Below are positions 15,778 to 35,964 of a stretch of 64,000 nucleotides of DNA, piece by piece; position 1 is the first letter of the stretch; each line of letters opens with the position of its first letter. The stretch is from NCBI GenBank assembly GCA_027531565.1, contig JAPZSB010000005.1, positions 124,001-188,000 of the forward strand, read 5' to 3'. The translations under genes were made by a program, and so were the position numbers. This stretch comes from Beijerinckiaceae bacterium. Lineage in GTDB: Bacteria; Pseudomonadota; Alphaproteobacteria; Rhizobiales; Beijerinckiaceae. Under the pieces are notes generated by a model. It was not told the DNA's origin and did not search any database. It saw only the letters and a program-made list of their open reading frames with translations.

Positions 15778-17328
15778 ATGAGAATGTCATGGATGGCGGG
15801 GGGCGCGCTTGTGGCCCTGCTCGCAGCGGGCCCGGCCCTCGCGCAGAAGACCACGTTGGTCATCGGGATGCAGACGCAGGATGCCGGCGTGCTGGATCCG
15901 CATATCAATTCCGGCACGCCCGGCAAGGCGCTGATGAACTGGATGTTCAACGGCCTCGTCCGGATCAAGCCCGGCCAGGCTTCGCCCGACCATATCGAGC
16001 CCGATATCGCCGAAAGCTGGACCTCCTCCGCCGATGGTCGCGAATGGACCTTCAAGCTGCGTCAGGGCGTGCAGTGCCACCATGATCTCGGCGAATTCAC
16101 CGCCGAGGACGCCGTCTTCTCGCTCCAGCGCGCGGGGAGCAAGGACAGTTCGGCCTTCTCCTCCGACTACTCCGCCTTCGATAAGGTCGAGGCCGTGGAC
16201 AAGTACACGGTGAAGATCACGCTGAAATCCGCCATTCCCAGCCTGCTCGGCCAGGTGATGAACTATCATGGCGGCAACATGGTCTGCAAAAAGGCCGTCG
16301 ACACGCTGGGCAAGGATGGTTTTGCGAGGAAGCCGGCCGGCACCGGTCCGTTCGTCTTCGCTGAGTACGTGCCGCAGCAATATGTGAAGCTGGTCGCGAA
16401 CCCGAAATATTTCCGTGGCGAGCCGAAGATCAAGGAAATCATCTACCGCTTCATCCCCTCCGACGCCGCGCGTGACCTCGCGCTTCAGGCGGGCGAGATC
16501 GACATGATGATCGGCCGGCAGGAACAGGCCTGGGTTGACCGCACCAACAAGATCCCCGGCCTGAAGGTGATCGCCTTCGGCCCGGCGGAAATGTCGGTCA
16601 TCCACCTCAACATGACCCAGCCACCGTTGGACAATATCAAGGTCCGACAGGCCATCGCCCATGCGATCGACCGAGCCGGCATCCAGCAGTTCCGTGGCAC
16701 GGCGATCTCGCGTCAGGCCGTCTCGGTTGTTCCCTCGGGCTATTTCGGCACGCATGAAACCGCGCCGCTCCTGCCGCACAACCTCGCCCGGGCGAAGCAG
16801 CTCCTCGCGGAAGCCGGCCATCCGAACGGCATCACCATCAAGGCGATCCACACCACCCTGCCGGGCATGATGGGCTTCATCGAGGCGGTGCAGGCCCAGC
16901 TCAAGCGGGCAGGCATCACGCTCGACATCACGCCGGTTGAACACCCGACCTTCCACCAGCAGATCCGTCAGGATCTTTCCCAGTTGGTCCATTTCCAGGC
17001 GGCGCGCTTCCCGATCGCCGACGTCTACCTGACGCAGTTCTTCCATTCGCGCTCGATCGTGAAAACGCCGACGGCCGTGACGAATTTCTCGCATTGCAAG
17101 GTGGCGGATGCCGAGATCGATGCGGCGCGCACCGAACAGGACAAGGCCAAGCAGGTCGCGCTCTGGAAGGCGGCGCAGGAAAAGATCATCAACGAGGTCT
17201 GCGCCGTGCCGGTCAACGAGATGCTGATGCTCTGGGCGTTCAAGGACAGCCTGGATCTCGGCTATGAGCTGAAGGGTTCGCTCAATCTCGGGCCGCCCAT
17301 CACCGAGCAGACCCGGTTCACGAAATAA
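15778..17328 (+). CDS. ABC transporter substrate-binding protein (SBP_bac_5, peptide/opine type)
   Basis: This is the periplasmic solute receptor (516 aa) of a peptide/opine/nickel-class importer. A signal peptide is clear: positively charged MRMSW, a hydrophobic core and a GPALAQK cleavage region at about residues 18-23. The mature protein shows the family landmarks LDPHINSG, EPDIAESW, WTFKLRQGVQCH and VRQAIAHAIDR. AGGAGGAACGG lies directly upstream of the ATG. It follows the SDR gene by 41 bp and precedes both permeases and the ATPase, so the importer is complete. The nearby flavoproteins suggest an amino-acid-like or opine-like ligand. Confidence 0.92.
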   Translation: MRMSWMAGGALVALLAAGPALAQKTTLVIGMQTQDAGVLDPHINSGTPGKALMNWMFNGLVRIKPGQASPDHIEPDIAESWTSSADGREWTFKLRQGVQCHHDLGEFTAEDAVFSLQRAGSKDSSAFSSDYSAFDKVEAVDKYTVKITLKSAIPSLLGQVMNYHGGNMVCKKAVDTLGKDGFARKPAGTGPFVFAEYVPQQYVKLVANPKYFRGEPKIKEIIYRFIPSDAARDLALQAGEIDMMIGRQEQAWVDRTNKIPGLKVIAFGPAEMSVIHLNMTQPPLDNIKVRQAIAHAIDRAGIQQFRGTAISRQAVSVVPSGYFGTHETAPLLPHNLARAKQLLAEAGHPNGITIKAIHTTLPGMMGFIEAVQAQLKRAGITLDITPVEHPTFHQQIRQDLSQLVHFQAARFPIADVYLTQFFHSRSIVKTPTAVTNFSHCKVADAEIDAARTEQDKAKQVALWKAAQEKIINEVCAVPVNEMLMLWAFKDSLDLGYELKGSLNLGPPITEQTRFTK

Positions 17329-17335
17329 GGCCAGA

Positions 17336-17361
17336 GGGGGGCGGGCTTCGGCCTGCCCCCC
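17336..17361 (+). terminator. Strong intercistronic hairpin (UUCG loop) between binding protein and permease
   Basis: An 11-bp stem with one G-U pair (GGGGGGCGGGC with GCCTGCCCCCC) closes a TTCG tetraloop, 7 bp after the binding-protein stop. No T-run follows, so it is more likely an mRNA-stabilising or attenuating structure than a full terminator. Such hairpins commonly raise binding-protein output relative to the permease genes. Confidence 0.6.
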
Positions 17362-17370
17362 GTTGCCGCC

Positions 17371-18309
17371 ATGGGTGCCTTTCTCGTCAAACGCATGTTG
17401 TTCGCGGTGGTCACGCTTTTTGCGGTGCTCACCCTTGTTTTCATCGTGATCCGGATTGTTCCGGGCGATCCCGCGCAGGTCATTCTCGGCGATCAGGCCG
17501 ATGCCACCGCGATCGCCGCCCTCCAGGCGCGCCTTGGTCTCGACCGCCCGATCTGGGAACAATATGTCAGCTTTCTCACCGGTGCGATCCGCGGCGATTG
17601 GGGCGTCTCGCTCGTCACCGGCCGCCCGGTCATCCGCGAGATCCTCGACGTCCTGCCCTGGACGCTCGAACTCACCGCCGTCTCGATGGTGCTCGGCACC
17701 GGGATCGGCGTGCCGCTCGGTGTCTGGGCCGCGATCAACCGCAACCGGATGCCGGATTACGTCACCCGGATCGGCTCGCTGATCGGCCTGTCCTTCCCGC
17801 CCTTCGTCTCGGCGATCCTGCTGCTCATCATCTTCTCCCTGGCCCTGCGCTGGTTCCCGGTCATCAGCGGCAACCGCGCGACACCCTGGGCCTGGTTCCA
17901 GTCGATCATGCTGCCGGCACTCAATCTCGGCCTGATCATGGCCGCCTACATCACCCGCGTCACCCGCTCCGCCATGCTGGAAGTGATGCAGGAGGATTAC
18001 GTCCGCACCGCCCGCGCGAAGGGCGTGCCCTGGACCGTCATCGTCTGGCGCCATGCCCTGCGCAATGCGCTGATCCCGATCGTCACGATCGTCGGGCTCT
18101 ATCTCGGCATCCTGATCGGGAATTCCGTACTGACGGAGATCGTCTTCAACCGTCCCGGCCTCGGCAAGCTGATCATCGGTGCGCTCAACCAGCGTGATTA
18201 CATGATGCTGCAGGGCATGATGGTCATCTACACGCTCATCGTCGTGGTGGTGAATGTCCTGACCGATCTTACCTATGCGCTGGTCGATCCGAGGGTGAAA
18301 CTGTCATGA
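17371..18309 (+). CDS. ABC transporter permease (DppB/OppB type)
   Basis: This inner-membrane permease (312 aa) opens with a helix at about residues 9-30 (MLFAVVTLFAVLTLVFIVIRIVPGDP is the family's N-terminal signature, split here by charge at its end). About five more helices follow. The cytoplasmic EAA-type loop reads YVRTARAKGVPWTVIVWRHALRNA (given as its first and last parts: YVRTARAKG and HALRNA). It pairs with the DppC-type subunit whose start overlaps its stop (ATGA). It imports the ligand of the 15778 receptor. Confidence 0.92.
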   Translation: MGAFLVKRMLFAVVTLFAVLTLVFIVIRIVPGDPAQVILGDQADATAIAALQARLGLDRPIWEQYVSFLTGAIRGDWGVSLVTGRPVIREILDVLPWTLELTAVSMVLGTGIGVPLGVWAAINRNRMPDYVTRIGSLIGLSFPPFVSAILLLIIFSLALRWFPVISGNRATPWAWFQSIMLPALNLGLIMAAYITRVTRSAMLEVMQEDYVRTARAKGVPWTVIVWRHALRNALIPIVTIVGLYLGILIGNSVLTEIVFNRPGLGKLIIGALNQRDYMMLQGMMVIYTLIVVVVNVLTDLTYALVDPRVKLS

Positions 18310-19192
18310 GCCTCTCCGTCTACAATGCCCTCCCGGCCGCACCGCGCCGCTGGCCCTGGCTGCACAACACCGTCAAGGCCTTCAATGCCAACAAGACCTC
18401 CTGGCTCGGCCTCGTCATCTTCCTTCTCGTCACGCTCCTTGCGCTGCTCGCCCCGTGGATCTCCCCGCATGATCCGCTCGAGCAGAATGTCTTCGCCAAG
18501 TTGAAGGCGCCATTCGAGAACTACTATCTCGGCACCGATTATTACGGCCGCGACATCCTCTCGCGGCTGCTCTACGGCGCGCAGATCTCGCTGGTGATCG
18601 GCATCGCCTCCACCGTGCTGGCGCTTGTCCTCGGCTCGATGATCGGCATCCTTGCCGGCTGGTATGGCGGCCGGTTCGACATCATCGTCATGCAGACGAT
18701 GGACATGCTGCTGGCCTTCCCCTCGCTGATCCTCGGGCTGATCCTTGTCGCCATGCTCGGGCCGTCGATGACGAACATCATCCTCGCCATCGCGCTGACC
18801 TCGATCCCGTCCTTCGCCCGTATTGCCCGCGCCCCGACCATCTCGGTCAAGCAGCGTGAATTCATCGATGCCGGCCGGGCGCTCGGCTTTTCCGATGCAC
18901 GGCTGATGGCGGGGCATGTCCTGCCCAACATCTTCCCCGAAATCCTCGTCATGGGGTCGATGTGGCTGGCCAATGCCATCCGCACCGAGGCCTCGCTCGC
19001 CTTTATCGGGCTGGGCGTCAAGCCGCCGATCCCTACCTGGGGCGGCATGATCCGCGAGGGCTTCGAGAACATTCTCGACAGCTACTGGCTGGTTCTCTCG
19101 CCGAGCATCGCCATCCTCGTCGTCGTGTTCGGCCTCAACATCCTCGGCGATGGCCTACGCGATGCCATCGACCCCAAACTGAAGGGCGAGCG

Positions 19193-19196
<4 letters not shown>
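18306..19196 (+). CDS. ABC transporter permease (DppC/OppC type)
   Basis: This is the second permease subunit (296 aa). It has the N-terminal helix followed by APWISPHDP and [15 protein letters not shown], both characteristic of OppC-type subunits, and later an EAA-type loop [15 protein letters not shown]. Its last cytoplasmic segment [12 protein letters not shown] is the family's usual C-terminus. ATG 18306 overlaps the DppB-type stop, and its TGA overlaps the ATPase start. Confidence 0.92.
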
Positions 19197-21010
<1,814 letters not shown>

Positions 21011-21136: not shown

Positions 21137-21586
21137 ATGGCCAGCTTGAATGTCAACGGACGCGTCGTCGAGATCGACGCGCATCCGGATACGCCGCTGC
21201 TCTGGGCGCTGCGCGAGCAGGCCGGGCTGACGGGGACCAAATATGGCTGCGGCATCGCGCAATGCGGTGCCTGCACGGTCCATATCGACGGCGAACCGGT
21301 CCGCTCCTGTTCGATCACGCTGGGCTCGCTCGGGGCCAACCAGAAAATCGTGACGATCGAAGGCCTCTCGCCGGATGTCAGCCACCCGATCCAGAAGGCC
21401 TGGCTCGAACTCGACGTGCCGCAATGCGGCTATTGCCAGTCCGGCATGATCATGGCGGCGGCGGCGCTTCTGGCAAGGAAGCCCAAGCCCACCGATGCCG
21501 ATATCGACGAGGCGATGACCAATATCTGCCGCTGCGGCACCTATAACCGCGTGCGGGCGGGCATCAAGCTCGCTGCCGGCATCTGA
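21137..21586 (+). CDS. (2Fe-2S)-binding small subunit, isoquinoline 1-oxidoreductase alpha (IorA) type
   Basis: This is the iron-sulfur subunit (149 aa) of a molybdenum hydroxylase, carrying electrons from the Mo site to an acceptor. The N-terminal plant-ferredoxin cluster is bound by Cys38, Cys43, Cys46 and Cys58 ([11 protein letters not shown]). The C-terminal helical cluster is bound by Cys97, Cys100, Cys131 and Cys133 (CGYC and CRC). The ATG at 21137 has GGGGAGG 5 bp upstream. It is followed after 12 bp by the Mo subunit and then by sox genes. The isoquinoline name is a family label; aldehydes or N-heterocycles are usual substrates. Confidence 0.92.
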
Positions 21587-21598
21587 GGGGAGGCGACC

Positions 21599-23770
21599 AT
21601 GGCCGATAACGCTGTCATTTCCCGCCGCTCCCTGCTGAAGGCCTCGGCTGCCGCGGCCGGTGCTTTCACGCTGGGCTTCTCCATCCCGTTCACCGCGGCC
21701 GAAGCGCAGGGCGCGACGCCGGAAGTCAATGCCTGGGTGGTGATCCACCCGGATGACCGGATCGTCGTCCGGATCGCCCGCTCGGAAATGGGGCAGGGCA
21801 CGTTGACCGGCCTCGCCCAGCTCGTCGCCGAGGAGCTGGAAGCCGATTGGTCGAAGGTCAGCTGGGAATACCCGACCCCCGGCGAGAATCTCCGGCGCAA
21901 CCGCGTCTGGCGGAACTTCTCCACCGGCGGTTCGCGCGGAATCCGCGAGAGCCATCAATATGTCCGCGAGGGTGGAGCAGCGGCCCGGATCATGCTGGTC
22001 CAGGCGGCGGCGAAAGAATGGGGCGTGCCGGAAGGCGAATGCCGGGCGGCGAAGAGCGTCATTACCCACACGCCCACCGGCCGCACGGTCACCTATGGCA
22101 AGGTCGCTGCGGCTGCCGCGAAGCTCGAGGTGCCGAAGGAGGTCAAGCTCAAGCCGGCCAGTGAGTGGACGATCGTCGGCAAGCCGGTCAAGCGGCTCGA
22201 TACCGTCGACAAGCTGAACGGCAAGCAGGTCTATGGCGCTGACATCAAGCTGCCGGGCATGCTCAACGCCGCCATCAAGGCCTGCCCGGTCTTCGGCGGC
22301 ACCTTGGTCAGCTTCGATGCGGCCAAGGTCATGGGCATGCCGGGCGTGAAAAAGGTTGTGCAGGTTGACCGGCGCTCCGTCGCCGTGATTGCCGACCATT
22401 GGTGGCAGGCCAAGACCGCGCTCGATGCGCTGCCCATCACCTGGGACAATGGCCCGCATGCCTCGGCCTCGTCCGAGACCATCGCCGCCACCCTGCGCGA
22501 GGGGCTCGATGCCGAGCAGGCTTTCGAGGGCAACAAGGCGGGCGATGCAAAAGGCGCCATCGCCTCGGCGGCCAAGCGGGTGGAAGCGACCTATTCCTAT
22601 CCGTTCCAGAACCATGCCTGCATGGAGCCGATGAACGCCACCGCGCTCTGGACGCCGGAGAAATGCGAGGTCTGGTGCCCGACGCAGAACGGGGAATCGG
22701 CGCTCGCTGCCGCCATCGAGGCATCCGGCCATCCGGCGGCGAAATGCGATGTGTACAAGGTCCATCTCGGGGGCGGTTTCGGCCGGCGCGGCCGCTCGGA
22801 CTATGTCACGCAGGCCGTCCTGATCGCGAAGCAGATGCCCGGCACGCCGGTCAAGCTGCTCTGGAGCCGCGAGGAGGACATGCTGCAGGGCACCTACCAC
22901 CCGATCACCATGGCGCGCATGGTCGGCGGGCTGGACAAGGACGGCAATCTTGTCGGCCTGCATATGCGGATTTCTGGCCAGTCGATCCTCTCCGGTGTCA
23001 ATCCGCAGGGGCTGCAGAACGGCCGCGATCCGGTGGTGTTCCAGGGGCTGAATCCGGGCGGGCAGGAAGGCCCGTTCGGCTATGGCATCCCGAACCTGCT
23101 GATCGACCATGCCATGCGCAACCCGCATGTGCCGCCGGGCTTCTGGCGCGGGGTCAACCTCAACCAGAATGCCATCTATGTCGAATGCTTCATGGATGAG
23201 CTGGCCCATGCGGCGGGCATTGATCCGCTCGAGTTCCGGCGCAGGTTGATGAAGAACACGCCCAAGCATCTCGCGGTGCTCGAGGCGGTGGCCAAGGGCA
23301 TCGGCTGGGGCTCGCCTGCCGCGCCGGGCACCGCGAAAGGCCTGGCCCAGATCATGGGGTTCGGGTCCTATGTCGCCGCGGCGGCGGAGGTTTCGGTGTC
23401 GAATGCCGGCGAAATCAAGGTCCATCGCATCGTCGCGGCCACCAATCCCGGCCATGTCGTCAACCCGGACCAGGTGGCGGCGCAGGTCGAGGGCTCTTTC
23501 GTCTATGGCCTCTCGGCGGCGTTCCACCAGGAATGCACGGTGAAGAACGGCCGGATTGTCGAGGAGAACTTCGACACCTACCCGGCCATGCGGATCAACG
23601 AGATGCCGAAGGTCGAGAGCATCCTTCTGCCCTCGGGCGATTTCTGGGGCGGCGTCGGCGAGCCGACCATCGCTGTTGCGGCCCCGGCGGTGATGAACGC
23701 GATCTTTGCTGCCACCGGCAAGCGCGTGCGTTCGCTGCCGCTCAAGAACGCGGATCTGCGCCGCGCGTGA
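21599..23770 (+). CDS. Molybdopterin-binding large subunit, isoquinoline 1-oxidoreductase beta (IorB) type, Tat-exported
   Basis: This is the catalytic subunit (723 aa) of a xanthine-oxidase-superfamily Mo hydroxylase of the membrane/periplasm-facing type. It carries a twin-arginine signal (SRRSLLK, residues 8-14) and a hydrophobic stretch ending near AEAQG, so the enzyme should fold with cofactor in the cytoplasm and be exported. Motifs include RSEMGQGTLTGLAQ, GGGFGRRG, GFWRGVN and a C-terminal GGVGEPTIAV, where Glu is the expected catalytic base. The final GTGA overlaps the start of soxX, tying it to the sox genes. Electrons probably pass to a c-type cytochrome, for which SoxX or SoxA are candidates here. 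Confidence 0.9.
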   Translation: MADNAVISRRSLLKASAAAAGAFTLGFSIPFTAAEAQGATPEVNAWVVIHPDDRIVVRIARSEMGQGTLTGLAQLVAEELEADWSKVSWEYPTPGENLRRNRVWRNFSTGGSRGIRESHQYVREGGAAARIMLVQAAAKEWGVPEGECRAAKSVITHTPTGRTVTYGKVAAAAAKLEVPKEVKLKPASEWTIVGKPVKRLDTVDKLNGKQVYGADIKLPGMLNAAIKACPVFGGTLVSFDAAKVMGMPGVKKVVQVDRRSVAVIADHWWQAKTALDALPITWDNGPHASASSETIAATLREGLDAEQAFEGNKAGDAKGAIASAAKRVEATYSYPFQNHACMEPMNATALWTPEKCEVWCPTQNGESALAAAIEASGHPAAKCDVYKVHLGGGFGRRGRSDYVTQAVLIAKQMPGTPVKLLWSREEDMLQGTYHPITMARMVGGLDKDGNLVGLHMRISGQSILSGVNPQGLQNGRDPVVFQGLNPGGQEGPFGYGIPNLLIDHAMRNPHVPPGFWRGVNLNQNAIYVECFMDELAHAAGIDPLEFRRRLMKNTPKHLAVLEAVAKGIGWGSPAAPGTAKGLAQIMGFGSYVAAAAEVSVSNAGEIKVHRIVAATNPGHVVNPDQVAAQVEGSFVYGLSAAFHQECTVKNGRIVEENFDTYPAMRINEMPKVESILLPSGDFWGGVGEPTIAVAAPAVMNAIFAATGKRVRSLPLKNADLRRA

Positions 23771-24222
23771 CCGGGCGGACCGGACATGCCGGTAATGGAA
23801 GGCCGCGCGGGCTCGCCATCGCTGCCTTCCTCGCGGTTCTCGCCATGCCGGCGCGGGCCCAGCCTGTGCCGGAAGCGGCGCCCCTGCCGGTTTCGCGGCC
23901 GGCGGATCCGGAGAATGGCCGCCGGATCGTGATGGACCGGCGGAAGGGCCTGTGCCTGCTCTGTCATTCCGGGCCCTTTCCGGAAATGCGTTTCCAGGGT
24001 GATCTCGCGCCGTCCCTAGCGGGCGCGGGTTCGCGCTGGACACCGGCACAATTGCGCGCCCGGCTGATCGACAGCCGGCTGTTCAATGGCGAAACCATCA
24101 TGCCGCCCTATTTCCGGGCGGAGGGTCAAACCCGGATGGCGCGGGCCTTTGCCGGCCGGACCATCCTCACGGCCGAGGAGATCGAGGATGTCACGGCGTT
24201 TCTCGCCACCCTTCGCGAGTGA
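23767..24222 (+). CDS. soxX: Sulfur oxidation c-type cytochrome SoxX
   Basis: This is a periplasmic monohaem cytochrome (151 aa), partner of SoxA in the SoxXA complex that oxidatively couples a sulfur substrate to the SoxY cysteine. The start is GTG 23767, overlapping the IorB stop; no better in-frame start precedes the signal peptide (GLAIAAFLAVLAMPARA, residues 15-31). Haem binding is CLLCH at 63-67. The axial Met is expected at Met112 in TIMPPYF, and the family's GPFPEMRFQGDLAPSLAG segment follows the haem. The C-terminal IEDVTAFLATLR is typical. The 3' end overlaps soxY by 35 bp. Confidence 0.92.
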   Translation: MTGRTGHAGNGRPRGLAIAAFLAVLAMPARAQPVPEAAPLPVSRPADPENGRRIVMDRRKGLCLLCHSGPFPEMRFQGDLAPSLAGAGSRWTPAQLRARLIDSRLFNGETIMPPYFRAEGQTRMARAFAGRTILTAEEIEDVTAFLATLRE

Positions 24223-24664
24223 GACGAGCCGGCGGGCCGTGCTCGCCGGTGGCATGGCCGCCATCGGCCTGGCGACACTGCGCCCTGTCCGGGCGGAGCC
24301 GGAAGACATGGCCCGCGCCATCCGCGACTTCACTGGCGGCATCGAGCCTCGCATTGGGAAGGTCACGCTTGATATCGCGCCGCTGGTCGAGAACGGCAAT
24401 GCCGTATCGTTCGAGGTGCTGGTCGACCACCCGATGACCCCGCAGGACCATGTCCGGGAAATCGCGTTGTTCACCGACAAGAATCCCTTGCCGGATGTGG
24501 CCCTGTTCCGGCTGACGCCGCAGATGGGCAAGGCGCATGTCGTCTGCCGGATGCGGCTGGCCACCACGCAGCATGTCACTGCGGTCGCCCGCCTGTCCGA
24601 TGGGTCGTTCTGGGCCGACCGTCGCGAAGTCATCGTCACCATCGCCGCCTGCACGGAGGAATAG
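24188..24664 (+). CDS. soxY: SoxY-like sulfur carrier subunit with non-canonical C-terminus
   Basis: This SoxY-family protein (158 aa) forms the SoxYZ carrier to which sulfur intermediates are attached. The start ATG 24188 has GAGGAG upstream and gives a twin-arginine signal (TSRRAVLAGG, about residues 13-22), as expected for exported SoxY. The SoxY fold is recognisable in VSFEVLVDHPMT, VREIALFTDKNPLPDVALF and VVCRMRLATTQHVTAVARLSDG (read in sections). The protein ends VTIAACTEE: Cys155 remains, but the flexible GGCGG arm that makes the canonical carrier cysteine reachable is replaced. It either carries a different substrate, works with different partners, or is impaired. Confidence 0.85.
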   Translation: MSRRFSPPFASETSRRAVLAGGMAAIGLATLRPVRAEPEDMARAIRDFTGGIEPRIGKVTLDIAPLVENGNAVSFEVLVDHPMTPQDHVREIALFTDKNPLPDVALFRLTPQMGKAHVVCRMRLATTQHVTAVARLSDGSFWADRREVIVTIAACTEE

Positions 24665-24666
24665 CC

Positions 24667-24996
24667 ATGGCCACGGCAATGATCCTGCTGCCACGGACCG
24701 TGATCCGGGCCGGCGATGTCGTGATGCTCAAGGCGATGATCTCGCATCCGATGGAGACCGGGTTCCGCCGCACCGAAACCGGCGGCGAGATCCCGCGGAA
24801 CATCATCCGGCAGTTTTCCTGCCGCTATATGGGCGAGCTGGTCTTTTCCTGCGACTTCCACCCCGCCATCGCGGCAAACCCGTTCCTCTCCTTCCCCGTC
24901 ATCGCAGCACGGACAGGGCCGCTGGAATTCGTCTGGCGCGGCGATAACGGCTTTCTCCACCGCGAGCAGGCCATGCTGCAGGTCGCGGCTTCGTGA
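24667..24996 (+). CDS. soxZ: SoxZ, sulfur carrier complex subunit
   Basis: This is a 109-aa immunoglobulin-like subunit that dimerises with SoxY in the periplasm. The family pattern is clear: a start in the middle of a strand (ILLPRTVIRAGDVVMLKAMISHPMETG, read in sections), IPRNIIRQFSC, then LEFVWRGDNG close to the C-terminus. Like other SoxZ it has no signal peptide and is expected to be exported together with Tat-targeted SoxY. It starts 2 bp after soxY, and its stop overlaps the GTG of soxA. Confidence 0.92.
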   Translation: MATAMILLPRTVIRAGDVVMLKAMISHPMETGFRRTETGGEIPRNIIRQFSCRYMGELVFSCDFHPAIAANPFLSFPVIAARTGPLEFVWRGDNGFLHREQAMLQVAAS

Positions 24997-25772
24997 CGCG
25001 CCGGGCTGCGCTTGCACTTGCTCTGGGCTGTCTCCTGCTCGGACCGGCCCCGGCGGACGAGATCCACGCCAGCCAGCGTCTCTCCGGCTACGACATGATG
25101 GGCGCCGAGGCGCAGGCCATGCAGCGGGACGATTTCGCCAATCCCGCCATGCTGGCCGTCAAGGAGGGCGAAGGCCTCTGGAATGCAGTGCCGGGGCAGG
25201 GGCGGCCCTCCTGCCAGTCCTGCCACGGGAATGCGGCTGCCAGCATGAAGGGGGTCGCTGCCCGCTATCCCGCCCGCGAGGCATCGACGGGACGGGTTCT
25301 CGACCTGCCGGGGCAGATCCAGACCTGCCAGAGCGAACGGCAGGGCATCGCTCCGGCCGCGCGGGAAAGCGCCGCCCTTCTCGCGCTCGAGGCCTTTCTC
25401 GCCATGCAGTCACGCGGTGCGCCGCTGGCCTCGCCGCGCGCGCGGGGGCTGGACGATGCGGTTTCGCGCGGGGAGGCGCTCTATCGCCAGCGCTTCGGCC
25501 AGCTCGATCTCTCCTGCGCCCAATGCCACAGCCAGAACTGGGGCCGTTCGCTAGGCGGAACGCGCATCCCGCAGGCGCATCCCACAGGCTATCCACTGTT
25601 CCGGATGGAGTGGCAGGCGATCGGCTCGCTCCAGCGCCGGTTCCGCAACTGCATGACCGGGATCCGTGCCGAACCGTTTCCGCCTGGCGCGGCGGAATGG
25701 ATCGATCTCGAGATCTACCTGAAGGAACGCGCTGCCGGCATGGCGATGGACGCGCCGGCCGTCCGGCCCTGA
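24993..25772 (+). CDS. soxA: Sulfur oxidation c-type cytochrome SoxA (dihaem)
   Basis: This is the catalytic subunit (259 aa) of SoxXA. A Sec signal peptide occupies residues 1-21 (ending PAPADE). Two haem motifs are present, CQSCH at 74-78 and CAQCH at 175-179, so this is the dihaem type. Cys220 in RRFRNCMTGIR matches the active-site cysteine that is persulfidated in SoxA. The start is GTG 24993, overlapping soxZ (GTGA). All SoxA catalytic features look intact, which contrasts with the altered SoxY arm. No soxB or soxCD follows; the next gene is convergent after 4 bp. Confidence 0.92.
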   Translation: MTRRAALALALGCLLLGPAPADEIHASQRLSGYDMMGAEAQAMQRDDFANPAMLAVKEGEGLWNAVPGQGRPSCQSCHGNAAASMKGVAARYPAREASTGRVLDLPGQIQTCQSERQGIAPAARESAALLALEAFLAMQSRGAPLASPRARGLDDAVSRGEALYRQRFGQLDLSCAQCHSQNWGRSLGGTRIPQAHPTGYPLFRMEWQAIGSLQRRFRNCMTGIRAEPFPPGAAEWIDLEIYLKERAAGMAMDAPAVRP

Positions 25773-25776
25773 TCAC

Positions 25777-26514
25777 CTATTGCCCGGTTTCGGGCACGCG
25801 CACGATGTTCCAGTCTCCATCCCACAGGCCGCGCTTCGCCGCTTGCGCGCCATCCCGCGCCGCCAGCTTCTCCCGGTCCGGCAAGGGGCCTCCCGGCTTT
25901 GCCCAGCCGCCCTCGACAAGCAGCAGCGCGAGGTCGCGTCCATCCACAAGGCAGGTCCAGCGCGCCGTGCCGGGATCACGCGGGGAGCGGATCGGCTGGC
26001 CGGATTGCAGCGTGCAGAGCAGGTCCTTGCCGCGGACATGGCCGATCAGGGCCGCGCGGGCCTGCAGGCCGCAGGCCCAGAGGCGCTTGTCCCCGCCGAG
26101 GCAGATCGCCGAGGCGGGCGGACTGTCGAGACCGTCCAGCGCGATGGCCACTTCCTCGTTGGTCAGGATATCGCCTCGCAAGGGCTCGAACGGCCCGGCA
26201 ATCCGGACAGCCCGCGCGAAACGGGAGCGATGGCCGAAATCCCGTGGCGTGAAGGGCGAAAGCCGCTCTTCGCCGGCCTCGTCCTGAGGAACGGCATTCA
26301 CCGGCGGGCGCGGCGCCTGCGGCACACCGATCAGGATGCCCGGCGGCTTGGGCCGCAGCGCCGGTACATAGCGGTAGGCGGCAAGGCCGATCGCCACGAC
26401 GATGAGGCTGCCCAGGGCAGTCAGCGTCAGGCTGCCCGGACCCGGCCGTGGCCGTCGGGATTCGGCGTCCTGCTTCGGCCCCGTTCCGGGGGCCTGGCTC
26501 AATCGTGGCGGCAT
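25777..26514 (-). CDS. Membrane-anchored SNase-like (thermonuclease-fold) protein
   Basis: This 245-aa protein has a proline-rich N-terminus, a transmembrane helix at about residues 29-46 (LTALGSLIVVAIGLAAY) and a C-terminal staphylococcal-nuclease-like OB-fold (about 110-240). DGLDSPP, WACGLQARAAL and AAKRGLWDGDW match the usual DGIDAPE, GxxAR and AxxxxRGLW positions. The Glu expected before the ARA motif is Gln here, so nuclease activity is doubtful. ATG 26514 is chosen over an open stretch to 26754 that has no features. It faces soxA and is divergent from the peptidase gene; no functional link to either is apparent. Confidence 0.78.
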   Translation of the reverse strand: MPPRLSQAPGTGPKQDAESRRPRPGPGSLTLTALGSLIVVAIGLAAYRYVPALRPKPPGILIGVPQAPRPPVNAVPQDEAGEERLSPFTPRDFGHRSRFARAVRIAGPFEPLRGDILTNEEVAIALDGLDSPPASAICLGGDKRLWACGLQARAALIGHVRGKDLLCTLQSGQPIRSPRDPGTARWTCLVDGRDLALLLVEGGWAKPGGPLPDREKLAARDGAQAAKRGLWDGDWNIVRVPETGQ

Positions 26515-26701
26515 TCGAGCCCCGGATGGATGTCTGCCCGACGATAAGCCCAAACCCGGGCCGGGTGTCCAGCCTCCGGATCGTCGATGCTGCGCACGAT
26601 CGGCGTCAGGCAAGGAGTTCCTCAGGCAGGCATCTCCTCTTGCGCATGCGCCCGGGCTGGAGAACAGTTGGTGCAACCTTGAATCTGCCGGAACCCCAGC
26701 C

Positions 26702-28096
26702 ATGTCCCAGTCCGATCGTCGCGCCGCCCTTGCCCGTGCGGCCGAAACCTTCACGTCCGGAGCGTTCCGGACAAAACTCGCGCGCCGGATCGCCTTGCCG
26801 ACCGAAAGCCAGAACCCGGACCGGGCGGAGGCGCTGGTCGCCTACCTGACCGACGAGATGGTGCCCGATTTCACGGCGATGGGCTTCACCACCGAGATCC
26901 TGCCCAATCCGAAGGGCGGCGGGCCGTTCCTCCTTGCGGCCCGGATCGAGGATCCGGCCCTGCCAACCGTGCTTGGCTACGGCCATGGCGATGTCATCCG
27001 CGGTATGGATGCGGAATGGGCGGAGGGCCTCTCGCCCTGGCAGCTCGTCGAGCGGGGGGATCGCTGGTATGGCCGCGGCGTCGTCGACAACAAGGGCCAG
27101 CACCAGATCAACATGGAGGCCCTGCGCGCCGTGCTGGAAACCCGCGGCAAGCTCGGCTTCAACGCGAAATACATTATCGAGATGGGCGAGGAGATGGGCT
27201 CTCCGGGCCTGCGCGAGATCTGCGAGCAGAACCGCGAAAAGCTGGCGGCCGACCTGCTCGTCGCCTCCGACGGACCGCGCCTCTCGGCCGCCCGCCCAAC
27301 CATCTTTCTCGGCGCCCGCGGCGGCTTCACCTTCGATCTCTGGATCGATGCACGGGATGGCGGGCATCATTCCGGGAATTGGGGCGGGCTGATCTCCAAT
27401 CCGGGGATCGAGCTGGCCCATGCCATCGCCTCGCTGGTCGGGCCCACCGGGCAGATCCGGGTGCCGGAATTCGTCCCGCCGGAGATTCCGGCCTCTGTCC
27501 GCCGGGTGCTGGCGGATATCGAGGTGACCTCGAACGAGGGTGGCCCCGCGCTCGAACCGCATTGGGGCGAGCCGGGCCTGACTTTGGCCGAGAAGGTGTT
27601 CGGCTGGTGCAACCTCGAGGTGCTTGCCTTCGAATGCGGCAATCCGAAAGCCCCGGTCAACGCCATTCCGCCCCGCGCCTGGGCCCGGATGCAGCTGCGC
27701 TTCGTCGTCGGGATCGATACCGACAACCTGATGGCCAACCTGCGTCGTTTCCTCGACCGGCAGGGCTTTGCCCATGTGAAGATCGGCCCGTCCCGCGATT
27801 CCATGTTCATCGCGACGCGCATGGACCCGGATCATCCGCAGGTGCAGTTCGCCATCCGCAGCCTCACGGCGACGCATGGCACCGCGCCGGCCATCCTGCC
27901 CAATCTCGGCGGTTCGCTGCCCAATGATATTTTCACCGATGTGCTCGGCCTGACAACAATCTGGGTGCCGCATTCCTATCCGGCCTGCTCGCAGCATGCG
28001 CCGAACGAGCATGTCCCCGTCGAGATCATCCGGCAGGGTCTTGAGCTGATGGCCGGCCTCTACTGGGATATCGGGGAGGGCCTTCCGCGCGGCTGA
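26702..28096 (+). CDS. M20 family metallopeptidase/deacylase
   Basis: This is a zinc-dependent amidohydrolase (464 aa) of the M20 family, which trims dipeptides or removes N-acyl groups. Metal ligands are visible: His95 and Asp97 in YGHGD, Asp129 in VVDNKGQ, the catalytic Glu163-Glu164 in MGEEMGS, and a C-terminal HAPNEHVP motif. A dimerisation domain sits in the middle (residues about 210-330). There is no signal peptide, so it is cytoplasmic. It starts divergently from the SNase-like gene and ends 6 bp from the convergent Ntn hydrolase. With the peptide-type importer downstream it may hydrolyse an imported peptide or N-acyl amino acid. Confidence 0.9.
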   Translation: MSQSDRRAALARAAETFTSGAFRTKLARRIALPTESQNPDRAEALVAYLTDEMVPDFTAMGFTTEILPNPKGGGPFLLAARIEDPALPTVLGYGHGDVIRGMDAEWAEGLSPWQLVERGDRWYGRGVVDNKGQHQINMEALRAVLETRGKLGFNAKYIIEMGEEMGSPGLREICEQNREKLAADLLVASDGPRLSAARPTIFLGARGGFTFDLWIDARDGGHHSGNWGGLISNPGIELAHAIASLVGPTGQIRVPEFVPPEIPASVRRVLADIEVTSNEGGPALEPHWGEPGLTLAEKVFGWCNLEVLAFECGNPKAPVNAIPPRAWARMQLRFVVGIDTDNLMANLRRFLDRQGFAHVKIGPSRDSMFIATRMDPDHPQVQFAIRSLTATHGTAPAILPNLGGSLPNDIFTDVLGLTTIWVPHSYPACSQHAPNEHVPVEIIRQGLELMAGLYWDIGEGLPRG

Positions 28097-28102
28097 GGGC
28101 TC

Positions 28103-30487
28103 TCAGCCCGGCTGCAACGTCCAGGTGAAATGCGTGGCCTCCGCGATGGCGGCGTCGGAATAGAGCATCGGCACATACTCACCCCGGGCCCAGAGCGGCG
28201 CGAGATCGGCGTAATGCGCCGAGCGCGGATCGCCCGACTGCCCGGGCGCATTGATCGTTACCGATCGGTCGGGATCGGCGAGATCCACGACCATCCGGAA
28301 GCTCGCGCCATGCGTGACGCGGAAATCCGACGGCCGGTAGCCCGCATGCATCGGCGAGGAGGCCGAGCCGCCTTTCGGCAACGGGCCGATATCGAGGCTG
28401 CGCGCCGGGTTCCGCTGCAGAAGCGCGGAAAGGGGATGCTCGAACAGGCCGTGATGCAGCCGGCCCCATTGCCAGCGGGCCGGGTCGGGGCCGAGGCGCT
28501 GGATCGCATCGGCCCAGGCTGCCGCAAGCGTTTCCAAGAGCAGCTCGTCGCGGGCGGCTTGAGGAGAGGCGCCCCAGCGCGCATCCGGTTCTTCCAGCGC
28601 GCGGCAGATCCCCTCGACATCGCCGGGCAGCAGCAGCTTCCGCACGGCTTCCGGCGCCAGCCGTGCCAAGACGGCGTGGCGGATATGGCGGGTATACCAG
28701 AGCTCGAACAATGCCGCCGGGCCGCTTCCGGCGGCCAGCACATGATCCCAGCCGGACAGCAGCGCCAGCGCCGGAGCGAGCGCTGCCGGCGGTTCGGCCA
28801 AGGCGTGCAGCAGCGCACAGAGGCGTCGCGCCGGCACCGAGAAGGCATCGGTCTGGAGGGCCTGGCTTTCCGCCACGCCCACCGGCCTGTCTCCGGCCAG
28901 CACCTCGTGGATCCGTGTCGCGCGGCTGGATTCGGTCCATTCGAAGCCAATCGGCATGGCGTCATGCGGCCAGTCCGCGGGAAGGTTCATCTCGTTCGCC
29001 GTCGCCACGAAGCCGGTTTCGGGGTTCCGCAGGAAGGGCAGGCGCCCGGCATCGAGGAACCCGTCCCATTCATGGCTGCCGGTGCCGGGAACGGGGGTCA
29101 GGCCTTTCCAGTTCCGCCGGGCCGGCATGAACCCGCCGGGCGACCAGGCGATCTCGCCCTGCCGGTCGGCATAGACGAGGTTGACCGAGGGTGAGCCCCA
29201 GCGTTCCGCGCTGGCCCGGAAGGCCTCGGGCGAGCGCGTCCGCAGCATGGTGAGGCTCTGGAGATAGGGCGCCGAGCCCGGCTCGAACCAGACCGAGCGC
29301 AGGGCGACGGCGCGCGTCCCTTTCGCATTCCGCCACAGGATTGGGCCGTGATGCGAGAAAACGAGGCGGCACGGCTGATCCGGATGCCCTTTCACGGGAA
29401 TCCGCTCTTCGAGGATTGTCATCTCCCGCAACATGCCGTCGAACCGGTAATGATCGGGGCGGGCGGGGTCGGTCTCGAGGAGATAGACATCCTCCTGATC
29501 GGCACCGAAAATCGTCAACCCGAATGCCGCATCGCCATTATGCCCGATCGAGAGGCCCGGCACACAGGGTTCTCCGCCGCCGATCGCATCGAAGCCCGGC
29601 GCCGTGAGATGCTGGATATAGCGCAGGCTCGGCAGCGAATGGGCGCGATGCGGGTCCGAGGCGAGGATCGGCTTCCCTGTCGGGCTGCGCGCCCCGGCAA
29701 TGACCCAATTGTTCGAGCCCGAAACCTCGGCATCGAACAAAACCTCGTTGAGATCATTGACCTGCCGCCAGCGCGAGGCCTCGTCCAGCCGCGCTGCCAG
29801 CCGTTCCGGCGAGAACGTGACATTGGCCTGAGCCAGCCGGAAGGGCAGCAAGGCCTCGATCGGGCAATCCTCGGCGCGGATTCCTTCAGGCAACACGGTC
29901 TCGACCATGGGGTAGAGATATTTCCGCAGGAGATCGGTCTCGGCATCGGCACCGGCGAGCACATGCAGGCGTTGCACCTCCCAGAGGGCGTTCCGCGTCA
30001 GCCCATGGCTGCGGATGCGGACGACATCCTCCGCGCGCCACCGGGCCGGCTGCGTGCCGAGCATCGCGAATTCCGGCGGCATGAGCCCCGGCTCGTGCTC
30101 TGCAAGGCCGATATAGGCGTTGATGCCGGCGGCGAAGCGCGCGCAGATCGTCTCGGCATCGGGCGCATAGGCGGCCCATTCCGCGGCCAGGTCACCGCGA
30201 TAGAGGAACATCCGCGCCGCCCGGTCCTGTTCGAGGAAGCCCGGGCCGAAATCCGCCGCGAGGAGGCCGAGGCCGCGCTTGCGCCAGAGATCGATCTGGA
30301 ACAGCCGGTCCCGCGCGGCGTTGAAGCCCTGCACGAACCAGAGATCATCGAGAGTCCCGGCCTCCAGATGGGGAATGCCCCAGCGATCCACCCGGATGCG
30401 CCCCGGCTTGGCGAGGCCGGGCAGTCGGAAAGACAGGTCCCGCTCGAGCGGCGAGGGCGGGGCAGCGGCAGGATCGGGCGCAGGCAT
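28103..30487 (-). CDS. Penicillin acylase family (Ntn-hydrolase) protein
   Basis: This is a 794-aa self-processing amidase precursor of the penicillin/AHL/cephalosporin acylase family. The alpha part includes WFVQGFNAARDRLFQIDLWR. Autocleavage is expected between Gly257 and Ser258 of SGSNNW, exposing Ser258 as the nucleophile. The beta part contains ILASDPHRAH, GLSIGHNGDAAFGLT and a late ATANEMN segment. Most relatives are exported, but no signal peptide is visible at this N-terminus (MPAPDPAAAPPSPLE), suggesting a cytoplasmic enzyme. It is divergent from the second peptide-type importer. Candidate substrates are N-acyl amino acids, acyl-homoserine lactones or related amides. Confidence 0.9.
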   Translation of the reverse strand: MPAPDPAAAPPSPLERDLSFRLPGLAKPGRIRVDRWGIPHLEAGTLDDLWFVQGFNAARDRLFQIDLWRKRGLGLLAADFGPGFLEQDRAARMFLYRGDLAAEWAAYAPDAETICARFAAGINAYIGLAEHEPGLMPPEFAMLGTQPARWRAEDVVRIRSHGLTRNALWEVQRLHVLAGADAETDLLRKYLYPMVETVLPEGIRAEDCPIEALLPFRLAQANVTFSPERLAARLDEASRWRQVNDLNEVLFDAEVSGSNNWVIAGARSPTGKPILASDPHRAHSLPSLRYIQHLTAPGFDAIGGGEPCVPGLSIGHNGDAAFGLTIFGADQEDVYLLETDPARPDHYRFDGMLREMTILEERIPVKGHPDQPCRLVFSHHGPILWRNAKGTRAVALRSVWFEPGSAPYLQSLTMLRTRSPEAFRASAERWGSPSVNLVYADRQGEIAWSPGGFMPARRNWKGLTPVPGTGSHEWDGFLDAGRLPFLRNPETGFVATANEMNLPADWPHDAMPIGFEWTESSRATRIHEVLAGDRPVGVAESQALQTDAFSVPARRLCALLHALAEPPAALAPALALLSGWDHVLAAGSGPAALFELWYTRHIRHAVLARLAPEAVRKLLLPGDVEGICRALEEPDARWGASPQAARDELLLETLAAAWADAIQRLGPDPARWQWGRLHHGLFEHPLSALLQRNPARSLDIGPLPKGGSASSPMHAGYRPSDFRVTHGASFRMVVDLADPDRSVTINAPGQSGDPRSAHYADLAPLWARGEYVPMLYSDAAIAEATHFTWTLQPG

Positions 30488-30695: not shown

Positions 30696-32210
30696 ATGCG
30701 TCTGCTTACCCTTGCCACTCTCGCGCTGGCGGCCAGCGCCAGCTTCACACCGGTTCTGGCGCAGAAGGCGCAGAATGCCGTCCGCTTCGGCTATGATCAG
30801 GTGCCGGAGAACATCGATCCCTATTTCAACAATGTCCGGATCGGCGTCATCCTCGGCCAGCATGTCTGGGACACGCTGATCTACCGCGATCCCAACACCA
30901 ACGAATACAAGGGCCAGCTCGCCAAGGCGTGGAAATGGGTCGATGACAAGACCCTCGAATTCAGCCTCCGCGAGGGCGTGAAATTCCACAATGGCGAGGA
31001 ATTCGATGCGGATGACGTCGTCTACACGCTGAATTTCGTCTCCAAGCCTGAGAACAAGGTTGTTACCCAGACCAACGTGAACTGGATCGACACCGCCGAA
31101 AAGGTCGACAAATACACCGTCCGCGTGAAGCTGAAGCGCACCTTCCCGGCAGCGATCGAATATCTCGCTGGTCCGGTCGTGATCCACCCGAACGAATACT
31201 ATGCCAAGGTCGGCCCGGGCGGCATGAACACGGCCGCCATTGGTTCCGGCCCCTACAAGGTTGTCGAGCATGTCGTCGGCAAGTCGGTCAGGCTGCAGCG
31301 CAATCCGGATTACTTCAGGGACAGCCCGAAGCCGCAGCCGAAGCTGGAGCGGATCGAGGTGCGCTTCATCCCCGATCGCCAGACCCAGATGGCCGAGATG
31401 CTCGCCGGCGGGCTCGACTTCATCATGAATGTCCCTCCGGATCAGGCGGATCAGCTCAAGGCCGTGCCGCATCTCGCCGTCACCAGCGGCGAGACGATGC
31501 GCATCGTCTTCCTCAACCTCAACACCCTGCCGGATGGCCCGGCCCCGGCCTTGCGGGATATCCGCGTCCGACAGGCAATCCAGCACGCGATCGACCGGCC
31601 GACCATGGTGAAGCAGCTGGTGGGCGAGGGCGCCCGTGTCCTCAACGTGATCTGCTATCCGTCGCAGTTCGGCTGCTCGGACGAGAAGGCGAAGAAATTC
31701 GACTACAACCCGGCCCGCGCGAAGCAGTTGCTGGCCGAAGCCGGCTTCGCCAACGGACTCGAGATGGATCTCTTCGCCTATCGCGAGCGCCCGCAATCCG
31801 AAGCGATGATCAATTACCTCCGGGCCGTGGGCATCAAGGTCAATCTGCGGTTCATGCAATATGCCGCCATGCGCGAGCAGGTGCGCGGCAACAAGGCGGC
31901 CATGGCGCACCAGACCTGGGGCTCGTTCTCGGTCAACGATACCTCGGCCTCCACGCCGGTCTATTTCGGCGGCGGGCCGGATGACATCAACAAGGATCCT
32001 CAGGTGATCGAGCTGCTCAAGAAGGGCGATAATTCGGTCGATCCTGCCGTCCGCAAGGCGGCCTATGCCGAAGCGCTCGGGCTCATCGCCGAGCGGGCCA
32101 TGGGCGTGCCGCTCTATGCCCTCGTCACCTTCTATGTCAGCGGGAAGGGCCTCGACTACAAGACCTATGCCGACGAGATCCCCCGCTTCTGGGAAATGAG
32201 CTGGAAGTAA
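30696..32210 (+). CDS. ABC transporter substrate-binding protein (SBP_bac_5, peptide type)
   Basis: This is the receptor (504 aa) for the second peptide-class importer. The signal peptide is MRLLTLATLALAASAS with cleavage near VLAQKA. Family landmarks are NIDPYFNN, LAKAWKW, LEFSLREGVKFHNGEEF and VRQAIQHAIDRP. The ATG at 30696 has GGGAGA upstream. The long open stretch before it overlaps the divergent acylase and is not coding. It is followed after 4 bp by the permease genes, and its divergent partner is the acylase, so the ligand is probably an amide-linked compound. Its sequence differs clearly from the 15778 receptor. Confidence 0.92.
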   Translation: MRLLTLATLALAASASFTPVLAQKAQNAVRFGYDQVPENIDPYFNNVRIGVILGQHVWDTLIYRDPNTNEYKGQLAKAWKWVDDKTLEFSLREGVKFHNGEEFDADDVVYTLNFVSKPENKVVTQTNVNWIDTAEKVDKYTVRVKLKRTFPAAIEYLAGPVVIHPNEYYAKVGPGGMNTAAIGSGPYKVVEHVVGKSVRLQRNPDYFRDSPKPQPKLERIEVRFIPDRQTQMAEMLAGGLDFIMNVPPDQADQLKAVPHLAVTSGETMRIVFLNLNTLPDGPAPALRDIRVRQAIQHAIDRPTMVKQLVGEGARVLNVICYPSQFGCSDEKAKKFDYNPARAKQLLAEAGFANGLEMDLFAYRERPQSEAMINYLRAVGIKVNLRFMQYAAMREQVRGNKAAMAHQTWGSFSVNDTSASTPVYFGGGPDDINKDPQVIELLKKGDNSVDPAVRKAAYAEALGLIAERAMGVPLYALVTFYVSGKGLDYKTYADEIPRFWEMSWK

Positions 32211-32214
32211 CGGG

Positions 32215-33132: not shown

Positions 33133-34024
33133 TGGCGGATGTCGCTTCAACCGTCGCCGCGCCACCGGAACTCTCGCAGCGGGCCCTGCTCTGGCGGCGC
33201 ATCCGGGGCCACAAGGGCTTCCTCGCCGGCGCGACCTTGCTGGCGCTCATCATCCTTGCCTCGCTGCTTGCGCCGTGGATCGCCCCGCATGATCCCTACG
33301 CGCAGGATCTGACGAAGCGGATGATTCCGCCGATCTGGGAAGCGCGTGGCCAATGGGCCCATCCGCTCGGGACCGACAATCTCGGCCGCGACTATCTCTC
33401 CCGCGTGCTCTGGGGCGGGCAGATCTCGCTGCTGATCGGCCTGTCGGTCATGGTGATCTCGGGCCTGATCGGCGCCGGTCTCGGCCTTGCGGCGGGCTAT
33501 TTCGGCGGTCGGATCGACCTTGCCATCACCTTCATCATCACCACGCGCCTGGCCCTGCCGGTCGTGCTGGTCGCCCTGGCGGTCGTGGCGATGATTTCCG
33601 GCTCGCTGCTGGTGGTGATCCTGATCCTCGGCCTTTTGAAATGGGACCGGTTCGCCGTGGTCATGCGTTCTGCCACGCAGCAGGTGCGGGGGCTGGACTA
33701 TGTCGCCGCCGCCGAGGCGGCCGGCGCCTCGACGCCGCGGATCATCCTGCGCGAGGTGCTGCCGAACGTGGCGCCGCAACTGATCGTCGTGGCGACAGTC
33801 GAGGCGGCGAGCGCCATCCTGCTCGAAGCGGCCCTGTCCTTCCTCGGCCTCGGCGTGCAGCCGCCATTGCCCAGCTGGGGGCTGATGATCTCCGAGGCCA
33901 AGGCCTACATGTTCTTCTCGTTCTGGCTGATCGCCATTCCCGGCTCCGCGCTCGCCCTGCTGGTCCTGGCGATCAATCTCGTCGGCGATGGCCTGCGCGA
34001 CGTTCTCGCCCCGGATGGCCGCGC

Positions 34025-34028
<4 letters not shown>
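33132..34028 (+). CDS. ABC transporter permease (DppC/OppC type)
   Basis: This is the second channel subunit (298 aa). After a short cytoplasmic N-terminus it shows LLAPWIAPHDPYAQD and HPLGTDNLGRDYLSR, the DppC hallmark. The EAA-type loop is YVAAAEAAGASTPRI and it ends with VGDGLRDVLAPDGRA. It is coupled to the upstream permease by a TGATG overlap and to the downstream ATPase by an ATGA overlap. Confidence 0.92.

Positions 34029-35964
<1,936 letters not shown>

Follow-up and report, generated by a model that had tools for sequence, protein, structure and literature searches.

A widespread gene cluster couples a molybdenum hydroxylase to a Sox carrier variant with an altered SoxY arm

The window analysed here, a stretch of 64,000 nucleotides on contig 9 of the 3.67-Mb genome of a Beijerinckiaceae bacterium, carries at positions 21137-25772 of its forward strand a head-to-tail gene cluster, iorA-iorB-soxX-soxY-soxZ-soxA, whose six genes are intact and have overlapping or nearly abutting ends. 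The two ior genes encode the subunits of a molybdenum hydroxylase (IorAB) and the remaining four encode components of the Sox sulfur-oxidation system, of which SoxY ends in VTIAACTEE, with Cys155, in place of the canonical VTIGGCGG arm, exactly as the original prediction had read it. This iorAB-sox cluster, in which a variant Sox carrier is coupled to a molybdenum hydroxylase, is real, conserved and widespread, being found in alpha-, beta- and gammaproteobacterial records; its partnership is conserved, its catalytic residues are retained and it occurs in genomes in which no SoxB, the thiosulfohydrolase, is found.

In searches led by SoxY, iorAB adjoins the AAC-arm SoxY in 52 of 56 genomes (13 of 14 near relatives, 22 of 25 from the class and all 17 from the phylum). 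These genomes were collected with the family model TIGR04487, with which 14 of 61 near-relative genomes, the window genome included, score over the cut-off, 385 genomes of the class yield 25 more at E ≤ 1e-45 and 398 genomes of the phylum yield 17 not counted earlier at E ≤ 1e-42; five of the 25 and four of the 17 lie below the curated cut-off and were kept for their AC-type arms, and one further genome (G055; 129 bits, GAC arm, iorAB adjacent in locus L050) stands outside the count. The neighbourhoods of soxY were read to about 7 kb on either side, contig permitting, and among the 52 one IorB (L180) and one IorA (L158) were read in two frames. By comparison, among 24 control loci with a GGCGG SoxY, iorB is near in none and soxB in 23, L258 being the sole locus without soxB nearby. 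This control consists of the genome's own canonical locus (L032) with three and 20 others, all sub-cut-off TIGR04487 matches of at least 124 bits, some of like score and the weaker ones having been left out; L051, with a GGCLT arm and neither iorB nor soxB within reach, belongs to neither the AAC nor the GGCGG count. The arm type of SoxY thus predicts its partner enzyme, and the pairing of iorAB with soxXYZA proposed from the window stands as real, conserved and specific to the altered arm. A mere chance neighbourhood of iorAB and sox genes is excluded by the SoxY-led searches together with the GGCGG control.

In the four genomes lacking the adjacency (G007, G130, G152 and G150), IorB is encoded on another contig and is 91, 71, 74 and 67% identical, respectively, to that of the window. 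The contig ends just after iorB in G007 and G130; in G152 the soxX side begins at a contig end and the iorB stretch has no observed end. The separation in these three genomes probably reflects contig breaks; that in G150 looks like a genuine separation of iorAB and SoxY. When the search is led by IorB instead, soxY lies in the stretch read in 71 of the best 80 of 218 matches, a set weighted to Bradyrhizobium. Seven of the other nine end within about 1.5 kb after iorB, and L081 and L122 are truly without soxY there. The carriers include Bradyrhizobium, Mesorhizobium, Azospirillum, Belnapia, Xanthobacter, Reyranella, Luteimonas (Gammaproteobacteria) and betaproteobacterial metagenome-assembled genomes (MAGs). 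Two records that are MAGs (L126 and L125) are labelled Bordetella parapertussis and Candidatus Marinimicrobia, labels that may be wrong. Tabulation of 55 loci, chosen by eye for diversity, finds iorA, soxY and soxZ in all of them, soxX and soxA in 53, and soxB and soxC in none.

The altered arm is no oddity of this DNA: the window SoxY falls in a named family, TIGR04487 ("SoxY-related AACIE arm protein"), which is widespread and not peculiar to the window genome, and it fails the model of true SoxY, TIGR04488, with 88.7 bits against a cut-off of 125. The name and description of TIGR04487 cover SoxY only, with the same arm type as that of the window, and assign no function; the partnership with the molybdenum hydroxylase, the SoxB-free genomes and the IorB clade described below are what the present analysis adds. 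The pentapeptide around the SoxY cysteine in 56 rows, the window included, is AACTE in 15, AACVE in 11, AACIE in nine, AACLE in six, SACTE in four and one of several rarer forms in 11, and the GGCGG arm occurs in none of these rows and in none of the 71 iorB-found loci with soxY. The AACTEE tail is common to five close genomes (nine loci, four of the genomes being represented twice), where it is encoded in part by different codons, and is therefore genuine. A sequencing error at the 3′ end of soxY was considered and is excluded by this shared, partly recoded tail and by the Ala-Cys pair (Ala154 and Cys155) kept in 56 of 56 aligned rows.

Conservation of the catalytic residues extends to the other components. 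The haem sites and the active cysteine of SoxXA, said from the window to be retained, are indeed there (one CxxCH in SoxX, two in SoxA, and Cys220 of SoxA): Cys63, Cys66, His67 and Met112 of SoxX, and both CxxCH motifs, Cys220 and Arg225 of SoxA, are kept in 54 of 54 aligned rows. SoxA residues 27-258 align with the solved SoxA chains 1h31 and 2c1d, and the window SoxY matches SoxY of the PDB in an alignment extending to the cysteine. IorAB has the features of the xanthine-oxidase family of molybdenum hydroxylases, namely two [2Fe-2S] motifs, two molybdenum-binding domains and the glutamate of a GVGE motif. In IorA, cluster cysteines Cys97, Cys100, Cys131 and Cys133 are kept in 56 of 56 rows and Cys38, Cys43, Cys46 and Cys58 in 55, the odd row being L158, whose iorA is split over two frames. 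IorB keeps GGGFGRR and the catalytic-type Glu688 (GVGE), which we take to be the catalytic glutamate of the family and which is kept in 56 of 56 rows; the protein aligns over its full length with the large subunit of a solved aldehyde dehydrogenase (8gy3_C, 265 bits). With Cys220 of SoxA, the SoxX and SoxA haem motifs, Cys155 of SoxY and Glu688 of IorB kept in all aligned rows, the conjugating cytochrome SoxXA and the molybdenum enzyme IorAB both look active. Neither IorA nor IorB reaches an NCBIfam equivalog cut-off. The twin-arginine (Tat) signal of IorB narrowly passes the cut-off of NCBIfam (17.5 against 16.7) and falls short of that of Pfam; read by eye, IorA shows no signal peptide of its own, SoxY has a Tat-type signal and SoxX and SoxA apparently have Sec signals.

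The IorB proteins of these clusters form a lineage of their own. In a tree, 59 clade proteins (56 cluster IorB, being those of the 55 tabulated loci and the window, and three IorB without sox genes in the stretch read, of which one is truncated where its contig stops) fall on one side of a branch and 13 paralogs on the other (Shimodaira-Hasegawa-like approximate likelihood ratio support 100), in a quick method that gave long-branch warnings on the paralogs. The paralogs come from six of nine genomes searched, the weak fragment L239 having been left out and L236-L238 being second pieces of included genes; none of the 13 has soxX, soxY, soxZ or soxA within 1.5 kb on either side. While the sox-linked IorB rows are 60-98% identical to the IorB of the window, the paralogs reach at most 45% in aligned stretches, and some residues of the clade are missing from nearly all of them. 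The IorAB of the window has the two [2Fe-2S] clusters, the molybdenum domains and the Tat-type signal of periplasmic hydroxylases of the 8gy3 or IorAB type, from which the sox-linked IorB is set apart as a separate clade. The window IorB shares 98% identity with those of Beijerinckiaceae MAGs and 97% with that of Rhabdaerophilum sp. SD176. The window genome also holds a second IorB paralog (C12:713438-715576, L227), 39% identical, outside the clade and without adjacent sox genes. Across 53 loci, pairwise identity of IorB correlates with that of SoxY (r = 0.72), SoxA (0.68) and SoxZ (0.64), as expected for a unit travelling together, although, the rows not being independent, the correlation is only in keeping with joint inheritance. 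For each of IorB, SoxY, SoxA and SoxZ, the nearest rows to Luteimonas include Mesorhizobium and Azospirillum, a pattern suggesting that the cluster was transferred as a whole.

The original prediction held that neither soxB nor soxCD is present, which is correct for the window but not for the genome, and the idea that the organism lacks these genes is contradicted by soxB and soxC on contig C13. A separate canonical sox locus there, at about 656,900-662,400, encodes SoxA, a GGCGG SoxY, SoxZ, SoxB (658803-660485; 828 bits, cut-off 550) and SoxC, with SoxY, SoxC and SoxA above the cut-offs of TIGR04488, TIGR04555 and TIGR04484; its flavoprotein carries both flavocytochrome c sulfide dehydrogenase Pfam domains (FccB-type), and at the soxD position lies a gene with a cytochrome c domain that no SoxD family model matched. 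Pfam finds two SoxY-domain genes in the window genome, one with the GGCGG and one with the AAC arm. As the genome thus has a canonical locus with its own GGCGG SoxY, the window cluster is a second, different system: it shares with canonical Sox homologous SoxX, SoxA and SoxZ, and a SoxXA with its haem sites and active cysteine, but has an AAC in place of a GGC arm, contains iorAB and lacks SoxB and SoxC, and on its own this gene set is, as had been stated, unable to run the standard Sox cycle. A canonical sox set elsewhere, combined with a lack of conserved iorAB-sox linkage in relatives, had been named as what would overturn the prediction; the former exists, whereas the latter is false. Among the 39 near-relative and class carriers, SoxB was not found in 25 (three of 14 near relatives at E ≤ 1e-100 and 22 of 25 from the class at E ≤ 1e-60), an absence that depends on genome completeness, given as at least 95% for 21 of these 25 genomes. 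The AAC system can therefore exist without the thiosulfohydrolase. SoxB is present in the other 14, the window genome included.

A gene for an FccB-type (flavocytochrome-c-type) flavoprotein is part of 34 of the 55 tabulated clusters, and that of L072, for example, passes both flavocytochrome c sulfide dehydrogenase Pfam models. It is absent from the window cluster and from the five closest clusters tabulated (L052, L055, L057, L058 and L059), so the cluster of the window may be a shortened form. Four small genomes of one genus of the phylum (G615, G701, G778 and G567; 1.7-2.1 Mb, L197-L200) likewise keep iorAB-soxXYZA with no FccB-type gene. In L051 (6560-8714), SoxYZ with the GGCLT arm adjoins an FccB-type gene, with no iorB or soxB in 14 kb, and its SoxY may represent a further type.

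How such a cluster would work is suggested by what it keeps and what it lacks. As the cysteine and haem sites known from the solved enzymes are still in place in SoxA, SoxXA is probably still able to link a sulfur compound to SoxY by a disulfide-type bond; because SoxB and SoxCD are missing from the cluster, the usual next steps are closed. A molybdenum hydroxylase with the active-site residues to be expected of it is the constant partner, and on the simplest reading it acts on the carrier-bound group. The cluster would then encode a Sox-like carrier pathway that works autonomously: SoxXA would load SoxYZ with a sulfur compound, which would be acted on by the molybdenum hydroxylase rather than by SoxB or SoxCD. 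We make this proposal tentatively and at somewhat less than even confidence. For the contact of SoxY with IorB, the substrate and the chemistry, we infer the following. SoxXA would oxidatively attach a reduced sulfur compound to Cys155 of SoxY, the electrons passing to cytochrome c; the likeliest candidates for this compound are organic thiols and other small sulfur compounds that contain an oxidisable carbon. SoxYZ would offer its bound cargo to IorAB, and the molybdenum centre of IorAB would hydroxylate or oxidise the carbon next to the sulfur, in the role of SoxB and SoxCD. Where there is an FccB-type flavoprotein, its part would be to oxidise sulfur that stays on the carrier or leaves it as sulfide; in the genus of the window this job, if needed, would fall to a flavoprotein encoded elsewhere, for instance by the FccB-type gene next to the canonical sox locus. 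Having to fit IorB and no longer SoxB and SoxCD, the arm would have turned from GGCGG into AAC[TIVL]E. In its broadest form the proposal describes a Sox branch in its own right, present in alpha-, beta- and gammaproteobacteria and independent of SoxB and SoxCD, in which the molybdenum hydroxylase acts directly on a sulfur compound on the remodelled SoxY arm, so that organic sulfur would undergo oxidation in the periplasm during its covalent attachment to the carrier; this is possible, but we would sooner expect it to fail than to hold.

Several observations weigh against this carrier pathway. Enzymes of the xanthine-oxidase family are reported mostly to attack aldehydes and heterocycles (PMC3877041), a preference that narrows the range of carrier-bound groups able to react. 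The FccB-type gene is absent from 21 of the 55 clusters; flanking genes, as named by eye, vary between genera, with no shared catabolic gene pointing to a carbon product; and SoxB help in trans is possible in the window genome. No common clue to the substrate was found among those neighbours: peptide-type ATP-binding cassette (ABC) transporter parts are repeatedly present, as are tripartite-type binding proteins and two-component regulators, but only in some of the genera. In two betaproteobacterial MAGs (L073 and L126) soxXA lies outside the cluster, which comprises iorAB and soxYZ, another soxXYZA with a TACLD arm being found elsewhere. Furthermore, a Comamonadaceae MAG (L081) has a clade IorB with only a GGCGG SoxY found, and a Mesorhizobium MAG (L122) has a clade IorB with one SoxY of DGCA tail and one carrier-like protein, neither above the TIGR04487 cut-off; these MAGs may be incomplete, and either IorAB can do without the other components or some of the parts have been lost or overlooked. 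At 9400-12460 of L122, a short open frame that contains a CxxCH motif but gives no Pfam match comes after iorAB; fccB-soxXYZA is absent there, and the rest of the cluster may have been deleted. In the same genome (L281) the SoxY with the tail ending DGCA is accompanied by SoxZ and represents another arm type. In two betaproteobacterial MAGs a soxXYZA set with the TACLD arm (L266 and L268) lies on another contig, besides the AACLE SoxY beside iorAB; one of these MAGs has a further canonical-type SoxY (L270) and the other a weak third match.

The main rival to the carrier pathway assigns the sulfur to the enzyme. Most enzymes of the xanthine-oxidase family are inactive without a sulfido ligand on molybdenum, and SoxYZ might carry sulfane sulfur that restores this terminal ligand in exported IorB, with IorAB oxidising an ordinary aldehyde or heterocycle. 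Though unlikely, such a supply of sulfur would explain the constant molybdenum hydroxylase partner, the dispensable SoxB and SoxCD and the clusters limited to iorAB and soxYZ (L073 and L126); the closest solved relative of IorB is an aldehyde dehydrogenase, and the two MAGs that keep IorB without an AAC SoxY are what an optional helper would allow. Sulfuration, however, is thought to be cytoplasmic and to precede export, the 13 IorB paralogs presumably work without adjacent sox genes, and the need for SoxXA over a simple persulfide donor is left unexplained. Passages of the source on family chemistry bear on both sides, as sulfide with dithionite reactivates desulfo-xanthine oxidase, yet one aldehyde oxidoreductase of the family needs no sulfido ligand (PMC3877041). 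Both the carrier pathway and this supply of sulfur require SoxY and IorB to meet, with which the correlation of arm and partner is in line and which it suggests.

IorAB might instead merely share an operon or a cytochrome c pool with a truncated thiosulfate or sulfide oxidation, in which SoxXA, SoxYZ and FccAB yield sulfane sulfur. The membership of SoxX, SoxA and SoxZ in sulfur-oxidation families, the flavoprotein of most relatives (L072 as example), which carries both domains of flavocytochrome c sulfide dehydrogenase, and the availability of SoxB in trans in 14 of the 39 genomes tested, that of the window among them, would fit such a scheme, which is nonetheless quite unlikely in view of the linkage of iorAB (52 of 56 against none of 24 in the control), the single clade of IorB, the 25 of 39 genomes in which SoxB was not found and the 21 of 55 clusters in which the FccB-type gene is missing. 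Passages on Bradyrhizobium diazoefficiens add that soxY1 is essential for thiosulfate oxidation and soxY2 is not (PMC5748708). Strain SZCCT0449 of this species has one SoxY over TIGR04488, one AAC SoxY in an iorAB cluster and one fused SoxYZ-like carrier over TIGR04557, so soxY2 is probably the AAC gene, which on that identity counts against truncated thiosulfate oxidation. As a last alternative, Cys155 of SoxY could trap an aldehyde as a thiohemiacetal and pass it to IorAB, with SoxXA serving mainly as electron acceptor for IorAB. The nearest solved relative of IorB would agree with this, as would another SoxYZ-like carrier, TIGR04557, which in the passages concerned goes with alcohol dehydrogenases (PMC12997753); but the active cysteine of SoxA would be superfluous, although it is kept in 54 of 54 rows, and the window SoxY stays below the TIGR04557 cut-off (49.6 against 140), so an aldehyde as cargo appears highly doubtful.

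The coupling of iorAB to soxXYZA through overlapping codons, as first proposed, is seen in the DNA, where the junctions overlap or nearly touch (Table 1).

Table 1. Genes of the iorAB-sox cluster in the window, with their junctions.
Gene	Position	Strand	Product and family matches	Junction with the following gene
iorA	21137..21586	+	[2Fe-2S] subunit of xanthine-oxidase-family molybdenum hydroxylase; 149 amino acids; Pfam Fer2, Fer2_2	12-base gap between iorA stop and iorB start
iorB	21599..23770	+	Molybdenum-binding subunit; 723 amino acids; twin-arginine signal; Pfam MoCoBD_1, MoCoBD_2	iorB stop overlaps soxX GTG start (GTGA at 23767)
soxX	23767..24222	+	c-type cytochrome; one CxxCH, Met112; TIGR04485 76 bits (cut-off 61)	soxY ATG (24188) lies 35 bases within soxX
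soxY variant	24188..24664	+	Cys155, tail VTIAACTEE; TIGR04487 187.8 bits (cut-off 172)	2 bases from soxY stop to soxZ ATG
soxZ	24667..24996	+	Carrier partner; Pfam SoxZ 84.8 bits; TIGR04490 72.9 bits, just under cut-off 76	soxZ stop overlaps soxA GTG start (GTGA at 24993)
soxA	24993..25772	+	Dihaem c-type cytochrome; two CxxCH, Cys220 in RNCMTGIR; TIGR04484 203.9 bits (cut-off 110)	

The cluster is flanked in the window by two oligopeptide-type ABC transporter sets (15778-21010 and about 30700-35960), the binding proteins of which both match SBP_bac_5, the other parts being named by eye. A gene convergent with soxA (25777-26754, reverse strand) has no Pfam match at E 1e-4, and between the cluster and the second transporter set lie an M20 peptidase gene ending at 28096 (forward strand) and a penicillin amidase gene (28103-30487, reverse strand; 641 bits). 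Rfam gives no match in the window at gathering thresholds.

Searches of open-licence papers turned up none that describes iorAB paired with the AAC-arm SoxY. In one recent SoxY phylogeny, sequences lacking the GGC motif were, according to the passages concerned, taken out before the tree was built (PMC11237559), a procedure by which the AAC branch would be left out by design. Passages on Polynucleobacter describe sox genes resembling or shared with those of Bradyrhizobium, their use for energy being unproven, and neither "isoquinoline" nor "molybd" occurs in the text (PMC3308952). For SAR324, passages report FccB next to SoxYZ of low identity, with no other sox genes, and in a separate place an isoquinoline 1-oxidoreductase (PMC4782131); the flavocytochrome c with SoxY and SoxZ recalls the present clusters by description only, and these passages do not join it with the oxidoreductase as one cluster. 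A carrier associated with quinoprotein dehydrogenases (TIGR04557) is, like that of the window, of SoxYZ type and tied to a periplasmic redox enzyme; in contrast, it is a fused SoxYZ with an enzyme dependent on pyrroloquinoline quinone, and the passages discussing it (Pseudomonas putida PP_2677) mention no SoxXA (PMC12997753). SoxY and SoxZ of the window are separate genes, and SoxZ scores 41.9 bits with this model, whose cut-off is 140. PMC12815253 does not concern the iorAB-sox cluster.

With its soxX, soxY, soxZ and soxA, the cluster may cause its carriers to be mistaken for thiosulfate oxidisers, even though SoxB was not found in most of those tested, and such an assignment would mislead if the cluster does something else. 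The matching of arm type to partner enzyme offers, in turn, a simple genomic hint of the cargo of SoxY. The cluster is present in Bradyrhizobium and Mesorhizobium, in which gene deletion is routine, and its products may oxidise a sulfur compound of some kind without recourse to the usual enzymes.

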